Of a stretch of 64,000 bases of DNA, positions 3,297 to 6,634 are shown in pieces. A model generated the notes under the pieces. It ran no database searches and was not told the DNA's origin. It worked only from the letters and a program-made list of their open reading frames with translations. Source of the stretch: Vulcanimicrobium alpinum (GTDB lineage Bacteria; Vulcanimicrobiota; Vulcanimicrobiia; Vulcanimicrobiales; Vulcanimicrobiaceae); assembly GCF_027923555.1 (NCBI RefSeq), contig NZ_AP025523.1, forward strand, positions 2,298,484-2,362,483, read 5' to 3'. Every line of letters starts with the position of its first letter. Positions within the stretch are counted from its first letter, which is position 1. Made by a program: the position numbers and the translations under genes.

Positions 3297-3650
3297 ATCG
3301 GGGCGGAGCACGACCGCACCCTCGAGGTACACGTGCTCGATCGCGTCCTGCGTCATCTCGGTGTTGATGTGCACGAGGACGCGAATGCACCGCTCCAAAC
3401 GACCGGGTACCCCGATCTCGGTAAAGTTCAACAGCGGGACGAGCGTCCAGCCCATCCGGCGCGCCGCAGCCGCCGGAAACTCGGAGACGAGATCGGGCGT
3501 GACGGTGAACAGCGCCGAGCCCACGTCGGCGGGCGCGAAGCCGTTTCGTTCGACGATCGCACGCAACAATCGCTCGGTCGCATCCAAGATGAGCGCCGGC
3601 TCGTCGCGCGCGACGGTGATCGCGCCGCGGATCCCGCGCATGACGATCAC
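3282..3650 (-). CDS. aroH: Monofunctional chorismate mutase, AroH class
   Basis: 122 residues, the normal size of AroH chorismate mutases, which convert chorismate to prephenate for Phe and Tyr synthesis as cytoplasmic trimers. Features of Bacillus-type AroH are present: RGIRGAITV at the start with the active-site Arg, TPDL, CIRVLVH with the second Arg, and HVYLEGAVVLRPDL with the catalytic Tyr. The GTG start at 3650 overlaps the stop of the upstream pseudouridine synthase by 4 bases (GTGA), which fixes the start and implies coupling. Confidence 0.95.
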   Translation of the reverse strand: MIVMRGIRGAITVARDEPALILDATERLLRAIVERNGFAPADVGSALFTVTPDLVSEFPAAAARRMGWTLVPLLNFTEIGVPGRLERCIRVLVHINTEMTQDAIEHVYLEGAVVLRPDLTGR

Positions 3651-4390
3651 GCCGGCTCCTCCTCGTCGTCGGATGCGCCCGCGATGCGGTGCAGGGCCGC
3701 GAGCTCGCGCTCGGAGACGGCGCGCGTCGCGCCCGGCGCGAGCTCGCCCAGCGAGATCGGCCCGAACCGCAGCCGCGCGAGCGCGACGACGGGATGGTCG
3801 AGCGCCTCGAACATCCGGCGGACTTGGCGGTTGCGGCCTTCGTGCAGCGTGAGGTCGACCAGCGAGACGTCGCGGCGGACCGCGACGACCCGCAACTGCG
3901 CCGGCGCGGCGCGGCCTTCTTCGAGACGCACCCCGCGCAGGATCCGCTCGACCGCGTCGGACTCGAGCCGTCCGCGCAGGGTCGCACGGTACGTCTTCTC
4001 GACGCCGTAGCGCGGATGGGTGAGGATGTTGGCGAGTTCGCCGTCGTCGGTGAGCAGCAGAACGCCGCTGGTGTCGTAATCGAGCCGTCCGACGGGGACG
4101 ACGCGCGCCGCGATCCCCGCGCGCCGGATCAAATCGGCGACGGTGCGGCGACCCTCGGGATCCCGCATCGTCGTCATCACGCCGACGGGTTTGTGCAGCA
4201 CGACGTACGTGTGGGCGGCGACGGGCCGGACGACGCGTCCGTCGACTTCGACGAGTGCGTCGTCGCCGACGCTCGTGCCGAGCTCGCGCACGACGCGGCC
4301 GCCGACGCGCACGCGGCCGGCGACGATCAGATCTTCCGCGCGGCGCCGCGACGCGATGCCGGCCGCCGCGAGATACTTCTGCAGTCGCAG
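3647..4390 (-). CDS. rluB: RsuA/RluB-family 23S/16S rRNA pseudouridine synthase, probable CTG start
   Basis: An S4 RNA-binding domain (LQKYLAAAGIASRRRAE) is followed by the catalytic domain with the signature VGRLDYDTSG, whose Asp is the nucleophile of RsuA/RluB enzymes, and EGRNRQVRRMFEA. The reading frame is open upstream, but the only ATG/GTG/TTG is a TTG at 4570, 60 codons earlier and deep inside the 3' end of the Rho-like gene. The homologous part begins at a CTG at 4390, with AAGAAGG 14 bases upstream, inside the last codons of that gene. CTG initiation is therefore the best-supported start. RluB versus RsuA specificity is not resolved. Confidence 0.88.
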   Translation of the reverse strand: MRLQKYLAAAGIASRRRAEDLIVAGRVRVGGRVVRELGTSVGDDALVEVDGRVVRPVAAHTYVVLHKPVGVMTTMRDPEGRRTVADLIRRAGIAARVVPVGRLDYDTSGVLLLTDDGELANILTHPRYGVEKTYRATLRGRLESDAVERILRGVRLEEGRAAPAQLRVVAVRRDVSLVDLTLHEGRNRQVRRMFEALDHPVVALARLRFGPISLGELAPGATRAVSERELAALHRIAGASDDEEEPA

Positions 4391-4398
4391 CGCGGCCG

Positions 4399-5802
4399 CT
4401 ACACCTTCTTGAGATCGAGCGAGGTCAGAAACTCCTCGTTCGTTTTCGTCCGGCCCAGCGCGGCATAGATGCGCTCCGAGGCTTCGAACGTTGAGACGCC
4501 GGCGAGTGCGCGGCGCAGATCGGCGACCTTGTGCGCCGCGATCTCGCTGAGCAGCTGCTCTTCGTACCAATTGGAGCTGCGGAGCAGATCGACCGGCGGA
4601 TACGCGCGCACGTCGACCAGTTCGCGGGAGAGCACGATCTCCGCGTTCGCTGCGGGCGCGAGCTCTTCGAGCACCAGCGCGTCGAAAGCCGACGATCCGG
4701 CACCGATCGTCGCAACGACCGTCAGCGAACCGCCGCCTTCGACCGCGCGTGCGGTTCCGAACAGCCGCTTCGCGCGTTGGATGACGGCGGGATCGAGCTG
4801 GGCGAAGCTTCCTTTGTGATGCGCGAGGGTCGCGTACGCGCGGACGAGCCGGCTGAACGACGAGACGAGGACGACCGCGTCGCCTCCGAGTTCGGCGACG
4901 CGTTTCGCGCGCTCAAAGACGAGTTCGGCGGTTGCGACGTGGTTGTCGGCGTGCTCTTCGAAGGTCGTCGCGACCACTTCGACGTCGAGCGTGCGCTGCA
5001 AATGCGTGACCGCCTCGGGGCGCTCGTCGATCAGCAGCACGATGACCTGAGCGTCGGGGTGATGCGCTTCGATCCCCTTCGCGATGCGCAGCAGCAGCGC
5101 CGCCTCGTTGCTGCGCGGCGGTGCGATCGCGAGCGCGCGCTGGCCCTTTCCGAGCGGCGCGAACAGATCGAGCGCGCGGGTCGCGAGATCGCCGCGTCCA
5201 TCAAGGGTGAAGCGCTGCGACGGCGGCTCGGCGCCGAGGTCGTCGAAGACGCGCCGGCCGGCGATCTGCTCCGGCGAGAGGCCGTTGACCGTCTCCACCT
5301 TCACGATGCCGTAGTACTTCTCGTTCTCCTTGGGACGGCGGACTTGACCCGCCACCAGATCGCCGCGGCGCAGTTCGAAGCGCCGGATCTGCGACTGCGA
5401 GATGTAGATGTCTTCGGCGCCGACCAGATAGCCGTCGCGCCGCAAGAAGCCGTACCCCTCGGGAAGGACGTCGAGGACGCCGTTGGCCTTCTCCAAGCCG
5501 CTGCGCTGCGCTTGGATCTCGACGATCTGCTTGACCAGATCGTCTTTTTTGATCTTCGTCGGATTCTCGATCTCGAAGGTCTTCGCGAGCTCGTTGAGCT
5601 CGGCTTTGCTCATCTCCGTCAACTGCTCGGCGGAAAGCAGCGGCGGTCCCACCGGCTGCGGAAACTCGGGCTGGGTGAAGACGTCCTGCTGCTGCGACGG
5701 AGCCGCGCCGTCGTTGAAGCGGTTGCGGTTCCGCCGCGAGCGGCGGCGACGGCCTCCGCCCTCGGGGCGACCGTTGTTCTGGGGACGATTGTCGAACTGC
5801 AG
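4399..5802 (-). CDS. rho: Rho-like protein with degenerate Walker A and Walker B motifs
   Basis: From a CTG at 5802 (GAGGGAG 7 bases upstream) the protein has 467 residues: a basic Gly/Arg/Asn-rich tail, a Rho N domain (LSAEQLTEMSKAELNELA), a cold-shock-type RNA-binding domain (GVLDVLPEGYGFLRR ... QSQIRRFELRRGD), then the RecA-like domain. The RNA-binding half is well conserved. The ATPase half is not: the P-loop, normally APPKAGKT, reads APPRSNEA (5101-5124), replacing the invariant Lys and Thr, and LLDSITR reads LVSSFSR, losing the Walker B Asp (4861-4863). The Q- and R-loop signatures are also missing. LIDERPE and a possible arginine finger remain. Domain order proves Rho ancestry, but ATP-driven termination is doubtful. 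A GTG at 5946 would add 48 residues but overlaps the promoter. Confidence 0.9.
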   Translation of the reverse strand: MQFDNRPQNNGRPEGGGRRRRSRRNRNRFNDGAAPSQQQDVFTQPEFPQPVGPPLLSAEQLTEMSKAELNELAKTFEIENPTKIKKDDLVKQIVEIQAQRSGLEKANGVLDVLPEGYGFLRRDGYLVGAEDIYISQSQIRRFELRRGDLVAGQVRRPKENEKYYGIVKVETVNGLSPEQIAGRRVFDDLGAEPPSQRFTLDGRGDLATRALDLFAPLGKGQRALAIAPPRSNEAALLLRIAKGIEAHHPDAQVIVLLIDERPEAVTHLQRTLDVEVVATTFEEHADNHVATAELVFERAKRVAELGGDAVVLVSSFSRLVRAYATLAHHKGSFAQLDPAVIQRAKRLFGTARAVEGGGSLTVVATIGAGSSAFDALVLEELAPAANAEIVLSRELVDVRAYPPVDLLRSSNWYEEQLLSEIAAHKVADLRRALAGVSTFEASERIYAALGRTKTNEEFLTSLDLKKV

Positions 5803-5936
5803 CGAAGTGCTCCCTCGGGGAGACGGGGCGATCCGCGCGACGGGGCCCGTCCGGCGAGGCTGCCGGGGCCGCACGTCAGCGCGCAGCGCCGAGGAACGCG
5901 AAGGTCGACGCGATACGGGACCGCGCGACGCCCCGG

Positions 5937-5965
5937 AGTTTAGCACACCCGCGTCACGGCGACAA
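5937..5965 (-). promoter_or_regulatory. Extended -10 promoter for the Rho-like gene
   Basis: On the minus strand TTGTCG (5965-5960) is followed after exactly 17 bases by TAAACT (5942-5937), preceded by TGC, which makes an extended -10 element. The -35 lies in the last codons of the DNA glycosylase gene. Transcription would begin near 5930 and leave a leader of roughly 130 GC-rich bases before the CTG at 5802. Leaders of this kind serve autoregulation of rho in other bacteria; that function here is inference. Confidence 0.55.
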
Positions 5966-6634
5966 GGCGCGAGGCCCGCTCACGCTGCGGCTGCCGCGCG
6001 CATAGAACCGCAGCGGCATCTCCGCCGCCTTGGTCAGTCCGATCCGCACGCTCGTTCCGATCTCGACCGGACGATCGCCGCGCGCGAGCCAGAGCGCGGG
6101 ATCGCATTCGAGATCGGCGCCGTCGAACGCCGGGCCGATCGCGAACGCGCGGCACACGTTGCCCGGACCGCGAGCGAGCTCGCGATCGGGGAGCGTCCGT
6201 CCGCGCAGCGCGTGCATGGTCGTCAGCCCCGCGACCGGTTCGCACGCGCGGACCAGCGCGGCCGCGCCGATCCCGTGCGCTTCGCTGGTGATGTTGAGAC
6301 ACCAGTTCGCACCATAGACGAAGTAGACGTACGCGTGCAGCGGGTGACCGAACATCGCACGATTCCGCGACGTCTCGCCGCGAAAGGCGTGAGACGCCGG
6401 ATCGTGCGGCAGATACGCCTCGGTTTCGACGATCCGGCCCACGAGCAGCTCGCCTTCACGCTCCCGGACGAGCAGCGTGCCGATCAGGGCGCGGGCCAAG
6501 GCGACGGTCTCGTGCGGAAGATCGGCGCGGACGAGCCGCGGCTCGAACGCCGCTCCGCCGCGCGCGCTAGGCGGCGGCGGGCTTGCGGAGGGCGATCTCG
6601 GTGCTTGCGCGCGAGGTGAGTTCGTGCGTTTCAA
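5954..6634 (-). CDS. mpg: 3-methyladenine DNA glycosylase, MPG/AAG family
   Basis: 226 residues with the AAG-type fold rather than the AlkA type: LARALIGTLLVRE, the catalytic GRIVETEAYLPHDPASHAFRG with its Glu, NRAMFGHPLHAYVYFVYG and the RACEP / ARGPGNVCRAF region. The enzyme removes alkylated purines in base excision repair. The homologous part begins near residue 30; no ATG/GTG/TTG exists between there and a TTG at 6634, so the gene either overlaps the upstream RNase H-like gene by 68 bases with a Pro/Ser-rich tail or starts at an unusual codon. Confidence 0.92.
   Translation of the reverse strand: MKRTNSPRAQAPRSPSASPPPPSARGGAAFEPRLVRADLPHETVALARALIGTLLVREREGELLVGRIVETEAYLPHDPASHAFRGETSRNRAMFGHPLHAYVYFVYGANWCLNITSEAHGIGAAALVRACEPVAGLTTMHALRGRTLPDRELARGPGNVCRAFAIGPAFDGADLECDPALWLARGDRPVEIGTSVRIGLTKAAEMPLRFYARGSRSVSGPRALSP

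Follow-up and report, generated by a model that had tools for sequence, protein, structure and literature searches.

A Vulcanimicrobium Rho that keeps its RNA-binding half and has lost the catalytic motifs of its motor

The closest known relatives of the gene considered here are the canonical Rho proteins (TIGR00767, PRK09376; E. coli b3783), ATP-driven motors that halt transcription and whose activity depends on a competent ATPase site. In E. coli Rho the substitution E211A abolishes ATP hydrolysis and K326A lowers ATPase activity by about 75%. Mtb Rho needs a competent site to unwind RNA and to disrupt transcription complexes, and its ATPase-dead form unwinds poorly (PMC4499133). Rho has also been lost in other lineages, for example several Bacilli (PMC13323073, citing gkae582 and D'Heygere 2013), and it can adopt inactive states, as hyper-oligomers formed with nucleotide or with Psu (PMC11829017, PMC11718236).

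The window analyzed here, a stretch of 64,000 nucleotides from the genome of Vulcanimicrobium alpinum (NZ_AP025523.1, positions 2,298,484 to 2,362,483), encodes a Rho that resembles the canonical protein in domain order, fold, RNA-binding primary site, the E211/R212 pair and its family locus, but is without Walker A, the Walker B Asp, R366, the GG of the Q-loop and the Lys of the R-loop, and scores below the TIGR00767 cut-off. We refer to it as pseudo-Rho. Rho2 (NF041509) and certain second Rho copies of another phylum (in genomes G149, G152 and G166) reach 428–467 bits against TIGR00767, close to the scores seen in the window's genus; unlike pseudo-Rho, however, they accompany a canonical Rho in the same genome, and their AGKT, Walker B Asp and arginine finger are all in place. 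The Bacilli are comparable in that Rho-dependent termination is dispensable, as in the rho-deleting relatives described below, but they deleted rho, whereas Vulcanimicrobium kept the gene and turned it into a non-motor protein. The hyper-oligomers are likewise non-motor forms of Rho, though as reversible states of an active enzyme, whereas the loss in pseudo-Rho lies in the sequence itself. Our literature search found no work that connects Rho and transcription termination with Eremiobacterota; gkae582, the principal survey of how Rho varies, lay outside that search and may mention the clade.

The sole Rho of the genome and its locus

Translation of the minus strand from 5802 to 4399 gives a frame of 467 residues that is Rho-like over its full length. 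The gene and the neighbors used as locus markers are as follows:

4399..5802, minus strand: pseudo-rho coding sequence, with a CTG start at 5800-5802 and the stop at 4399-4401 (translation and Rho profiles)
5954..6634, minus strand: MPG (methylpurine-DNA glycosylase), upstream neighbor (Pfam PF02245; synteny)
3647..4570, minus strand: ORF of an rluB-type pseudouridine synthase, downstream neighbor (Pfam PF00849 and PF01479; synteny), whose true start is probably near 4400

In profile comparisons pseudo-Rho passes the PRK09376 cut-off (415 bits against 315), falls under the TIGR00767 equivalog cut-off (409.7 against 509.45 bits) and stays below that of NF041509, the short-form Rho2 (307.8 bits against 628); its best relatives among solved structures are all Rho. 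The host genome is a single contig of 3,508,363 bases, 99.65% complete, with 68.1% G+C in the sample of it that was counted, and the published genome of Vulcanimicrobium alpinus WC8-2 is 3.50 Mbp, 68.4% G+C and gap-free (PMC9758169). The Rho profile drew in pseudo-rho and three weaker matches from this genome. Judged from sequence, one of these three looks like a FliI/SctN-type export ATPase and the other two like the beta and alpha subunits of the F1 ATPase, which leaves pseudo-rho as the sole Rho of the genome. The original prediction had taken the gene for a paralogue and pointed to a possible second, canonical rho. The profile search of this complete one-contig genome found no second Rho, and the gene stands at the ancestral rho locus, so that the label of paralogue has to be dropped. 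The roles of Rho decoy and hexamer modulator proposed with it are excluded as well, because there is no other Rho on which to act.

The gene order CPBP-rpf-glycosyltransferase-conserved ORF-MPG-rho-rluB-...-TPR-exbB-exbD-exbD is common to the window's genus, to two related genera (g27 and g37) and to the genera of the family with canonical Rho. As pseudo-rho and canonical rho thus share their surroundings, the former is an orthologue in place. Pseudo-rho is the ancestral, single-copy rho of its lineage, turned into a pseudo-enzyme.

A conserved RNA-binding half and an altered motor half

The RNA-binding half is made up of the following segments:

5644..5802, minus strand: N-terminal Arg/Gly-rich extension, residues 1-53, predicted to be disordered (pLDDT < 50) and also present in canonical relatives
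5497..5625, minus strand: Rho_N domain, residues 60-102 (Pfam PF07498, E=7.9e-8)
5269..5484, minus strand: cold-shock-type RNA-binding domain, residues 107-178 (Pfam PF07497, E=4.7e-32)

In the alignment all seven of the primary-site residues checked are kept (Y117, F119, R121, D131, Y133, E161 and Y163); Y117 corresponds to F62 of E. coli Rho, and is a tyrosine in all relatives too. We also followed 184 positions that are near-invariant in canonical Rho. Of these, the window's genus keeps all 4 that lie in the N-terminal helix bundle and 31 of the 33 in the RNA-binding domain, whereas it keeps 66 of the 139 motor-domain positions. Together with the Pfam matches and the primary site, this bears out the earlier view that the Rho_N and cold-shock domains are in good condition.

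Motifs of the motor half were called from an alignment with E. coli Rho (b3783, from MG1655) and relatives; numbers given for lost residues are those of E. coli:

4576..5181, minus strand: RecA-like motor core, residues 208-409 (Pfam PF00006, E=1.3e-16), with the fold kept and catalysis lost
5101..5124, minus strand: former Walker A, APPRSNEA for APPKAGKT, with K181, G183, K184 and T185 lost
5014..5034, minus strand: LIDERPE, kept (E211 is E260 and R212 is R261 here)
4858..4869, minus strand: former Walker B, LVSS for LLDS (within LVSSFSR), with D265 lost
4792..4815, minus strand: former Q-loop, shorter and with GG changed to AQ
4681..4707, minus strand: former R-loop, K326 replaced by A372
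4645..4659, minus strand: APAAN for KGTGN (E. coli 336-340)
4555..4578, minus strand: former arginine-finger segment, SSNWYEEQ for SGTRHEEL, R366 replaced by W412

The alignment thus upholds the four losses, the frame and the coordinates originally reported for the P-loop, Walker B, the Q-loop and the R-loop/KGTGN segment; the Q- and R-loops belong to the secondary RNA site of Rho. The accompanying statement that LIDERPE and an arginine finger survive is right for LIDERPE but not for the finger itself, although R353 is kept. Besides R353, pseudo-Rho retains E211 (the catalytic Glu), R212 (the Arg valve) and R347. The eight complete orthologues of the genus, which come from separate genomes and are about 80% identical, all carry the same losses relative to E. 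coli Rho, and hence these are far above chance and fixed in the lineage; this also disposes of an assembly or sequencing error. Across the complete orthologues the P-loop Thr is Ala or Ser and the Walker B Asp is Ser or Gly, and the position of R366 varies in the genus between W, S, F, M and V. Position 184 (window 5101-5109) is acidic (Asp or Glu) in 8 of 8 complete orthologues and Ala in the sister genus g27, so that the acidic residue must have arisen within the lineage and been conserved since. Residues newly fixed in the genus include this acid, H218, N365 and Q370.

The AlphaFold model places the motor-core block mostly at pLDDT 82–97, with the lowest value, 69, at residues 331-340, so the predicted fold is confident outside the disordered 53-residue tail. 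A Foldseek search with this model recovered Rho structures as its best matches (E=2.2e-39; TM-score up to 0.76 on the query and 0.93 on the target).

As a control we surveyed 151 genomes of another phylum, reached via an Armatimonadetes record. Of these, 144 exceeded the Rho cut-off, three scored lower and four gave no match above background. Six Rhos of the control phylum that score low or are second copies were read; each shows AGKT or SGKT in its P-loop and retains both the Walker B Asp and the arginine finger, from which we conclude that a low score alone does not equal lost catalysis. Against this sample, the loss of the catalytic motifs is peculiar to the lineage of the window. In several genomes of the control phylum the canonical Rho is accompanied by a diverged second one whose catalytic motifs are intact.

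These comparisons bear on the idea that pseudo-Rho might still be a working ATPase whose nucleotide site has been rebuilt in a non-canonical form. The retention of E211, R212 and R353 would fit such a site, but in all complete orthologues the P-loop Lys has become Asp or Glu and the Thr, the Walker B Asp and the arginine finger are gone, while even the low-scoring Rhos sampled in the other phylum keep AGKT/SGKT and D265. We therefore give this idea almost no weight.

Distribution, phylogeny and selection

In a survey of 149 genomes of the phylum, 103 passed the Rho cut-off. The window's genus is represented by 11 genomes: eight have the complete diverged Rho, two have parts of it at contig ends and one (G126) has none; canonical Rho was found in none of the 11. 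G126 was rejected as a rho-less genome, as its contig stops inside rluB just before rho, which makes the absence an assembly gap. In genus g27 (two genomes) the P-loop is lost and E211 has become Gly, while D265 and R366 are kept; in g37 (one genome), a more distant sister, every motif is kept, but the protein is unusually diverged, with 543 bits against about 620–650 in canonical relatives. Ten genomes from eight genera (g4, g9, g16, g18, g26, g29, g30 and g38) have a clean deletion of rho, in which MPG and rluB abut, overlap or lie at most 77 bases apart with no rho sequence between them. Rho is also missing from the locus in three further genera (g3, g31 and g34), where the region is rearranged or contains gaps. 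In genome G107 we noted a Rho-like ORF with an intact P-loop (contig C39, L127/L190, 363-1010) at a contig end, off the rho locus and 36% identical, which is possibly a contaminant or a transferred copy.

The RpoB tree unites the rho-less genera, g37, g27 and the window's genus in one clade (support 98/95, and 95/92 when the tree was run again); the clade next to it has canonical Rho and no other kind. A single rho-less clade is rejected on this tree (p-AU 0.033), which implies at least two deletions of rho. The tree of four locus genes also places the rho-less genomes in two groups and recovers a clade of the window's genus, g27 and g37, but unlike RpoB it makes the larger rho-less group the neighbor of the canonical one, and it pairs g27 with g37. 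In the Rho tree g27 is joined to the window's genus with 100/100 support, a grouping that could be misled by shared decay. The simplest reading is one P-loop loss in the common ancestor of g27 and the window's genus, followed by different further losses; two independent P-loop losses are possible. The coordinated loss first proposed is thus real, but the orthologues, the Rho tree and the motif pattern of g27 show that it was stepwise. Viral relatives of pseudo-Rho were sought, and none were found.

Given that relatives have cleanly deleted rho, pseudo-rho might itself be a gene on its way out, still present as an ORF after selection was relaxed once Rho became dispensable. In the codon model the omega of the motor half is indeed up about six-fold, from 0.015 in canonical relatives (nine sequences) to 0.086 in the window's genus, and pairwise dN/dS there rises from 0.043 to 0.233. 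The RNA-binding half, however, is not relaxed, with an omega of 0.032 against 0.045 and a pairwise dN/dS of 0.106 against 0.136. Moreover, setting omega to 1 worsens the fit by 237 and 375 log units, the eight complete ORFs have stayed intact across species separated by a dS of about 0.5, and new residues have been fixed in the genus. The way-out reading is largely refuted by these observations, and we regard it as improbable. With the frame intact in eight species and omega = 1 rejected, pseudo-rho is not a decaying pseudogene but a pseudo-enzyme under purifying selection, in which constraint is now strongest in the RNA-binding half. The motifs, the orthologues, the codon rates and the predicted fold together support the core of the original prediction, a non-motor protein of the Rho family that would be able to bind RNA.

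We also searched for genome-wide footprints of lost Rho termination. A loss of purine bias was not seen, coding purine content being about 0.49–0.51 in all groups, but the test may be blind since the canonical relatives are without a purine bias too. Nor was there a rise in U-tract intrinsic terminators, which stand at 19 of the 251 gene ends called for the window's genus and at 25 of 231 in canonical relatives, the gene ends being calls from a simple GC-periodicity script and the counts in both groups barely exceeding shuffles. Strong hairpins without a U-tract stand at 25% versus 13% in shuffled sequence in the window's genus and at 12% versus 6% in canonical relatives, groups that differ in GC. 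Side by side with these searches, we observed that rpoC (G000:C1:2060789-2064268) and rpoB (2094621-2096444) lie about 30 kb apart in the host genome, with two transposase-like ORFs, by eye of IS110 and mutator type, near rpoB. The two genes are also apart in G128, G119, G125, G077, G042, G051 and G106 and adjacent in sister families (G029, G017), indicating that in this family the rpoBC operon has come apart.

A role in transcription that is free of ATP is conceivable, in which pseudo-Rho would sit on RNA polymerase with NusG/NusA, bind the emerging RNA and pause, trap or shield the complex as a roadblock or antiterminator. NusG is present in pseudo-Rho genomes with its KOW region nearly unchanged, the CTD fold is kept with parts of it constrained (residues 192-260, pairwise dN/dS 0.129), and Mtb Rho was at one time proposed to terminate without its motor. 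Yet NusG is just as conserved in the rho-less relatives, so its conservation is uninformative on Rho, and no NusG change across the groups was informative on Rho status. The Mtb proposal, for its part, was contradicted by later work in which hydrolysis was required (PMC4499133). On balance we consider such a role doubtful, if worth keeping in view.

Translational leader and proposed function

Upstream of the coding sequence two elements stand out:

5810..5822, minus strand: segment with the Shine-Dalgarno sequence GAGGGAG (5810-5816), which could pair with CTCCC just upstream
5851..5866, minus strand: leader hairpin CCGGC-AGCCUC-GCCGG, 48 nt 5' of the start codon

The CTG start at 5802 was accepted because the Shine-Dalgarno sequence is conserved (GAGAGAG-type) and the equivalent place in the family holds CTG, ATT or ATC (ATT in G106, ATC in G093). 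The hairpin with its AGCCUC loop occurs in every rho leader of family f1 that was checked, 44–54 nt 5' of the start; g27 has a compensatory change (CCGGU-AGCCUC-ACCGG), and the hairpin is kept in the motor-dead lineage. Rfam gave no match for the rho leader, and RNAalifold on the whole leader returned no structure. A regulon sharing the leader motif was considered and rejected, its core being at chance frequency elsewhere in the genome. The hairpin, the rare start codon and the pairable Shine-Dalgarno sequence suggest translational control of rho. The conservation of the hairpin, the rare start and the adjacency of rluB could further be taken to mean that the gene owes its retention chiefly to autoregulation or to being translationally coupled with rluB. 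Against this, rluB persists where rho has been excised with nothing left between the genes, and coupling leaves the protein-level constraint on primary-site residues unexplained; we hold it to be very unlikely.

The reading we favor, at roughly even odds (about 0.5), is that Rho has here been turned into an ATP-independent RNA-binding protein. Pseudo-Rho would no longer translocate on RNA or terminate transcription by means of its motor. It would instead be a probably oligomeric binder of pyrimidine-rich single-stranded RNA, acting as a coat or, as the original prediction had it, possibly as an RNA chaperone, with the arginine-rich tail adding affinity for RNA. Loss of the motor would have been tolerated because Rho-dependent termination was no longer needed in this part of the family, a dispensability suggested by the outright deletion of rho in related genera. 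Given that the motor half is still under selection, a description as RNA-binding domain plus scaffold may miss a function of the CTD. Judging from the residues, the loss of the Q- and R-loops and of pocket residues could have weakened the ring, and the kept E211, R212 and R353, for which a pure scaffold has no obvious need, would count against such a scaffold. A more speculative variant, which we think rather unlikely, is that the acid at the position of the P-loop Lys mimics the phosphates of ATP and pairs with R212/R353 of the neighboring subunit, giving a constitutive, ATP-free ring that would package pyrimidine-rich RNA or hold it on RNA polymerase. If true, such a nucleotide-free locked ring would add a third state to Rho biology, besides 'motor' and 'absent'.

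Rho has usually been treated as either a motor or absent, and here a genus of soil bacteria keeps Rho and discards the motor. A single family displays the whole series, from canonical Rho through a fast-evolving intact form (g37) and two differently broken ones (g27 and Vulcanimicrobium) to clean deletions. ATP-independent functions of Rho, which have been debated for Mtb Rho, thereby become testable in a cultivated species with a complete genome and without a confounding active Rho.
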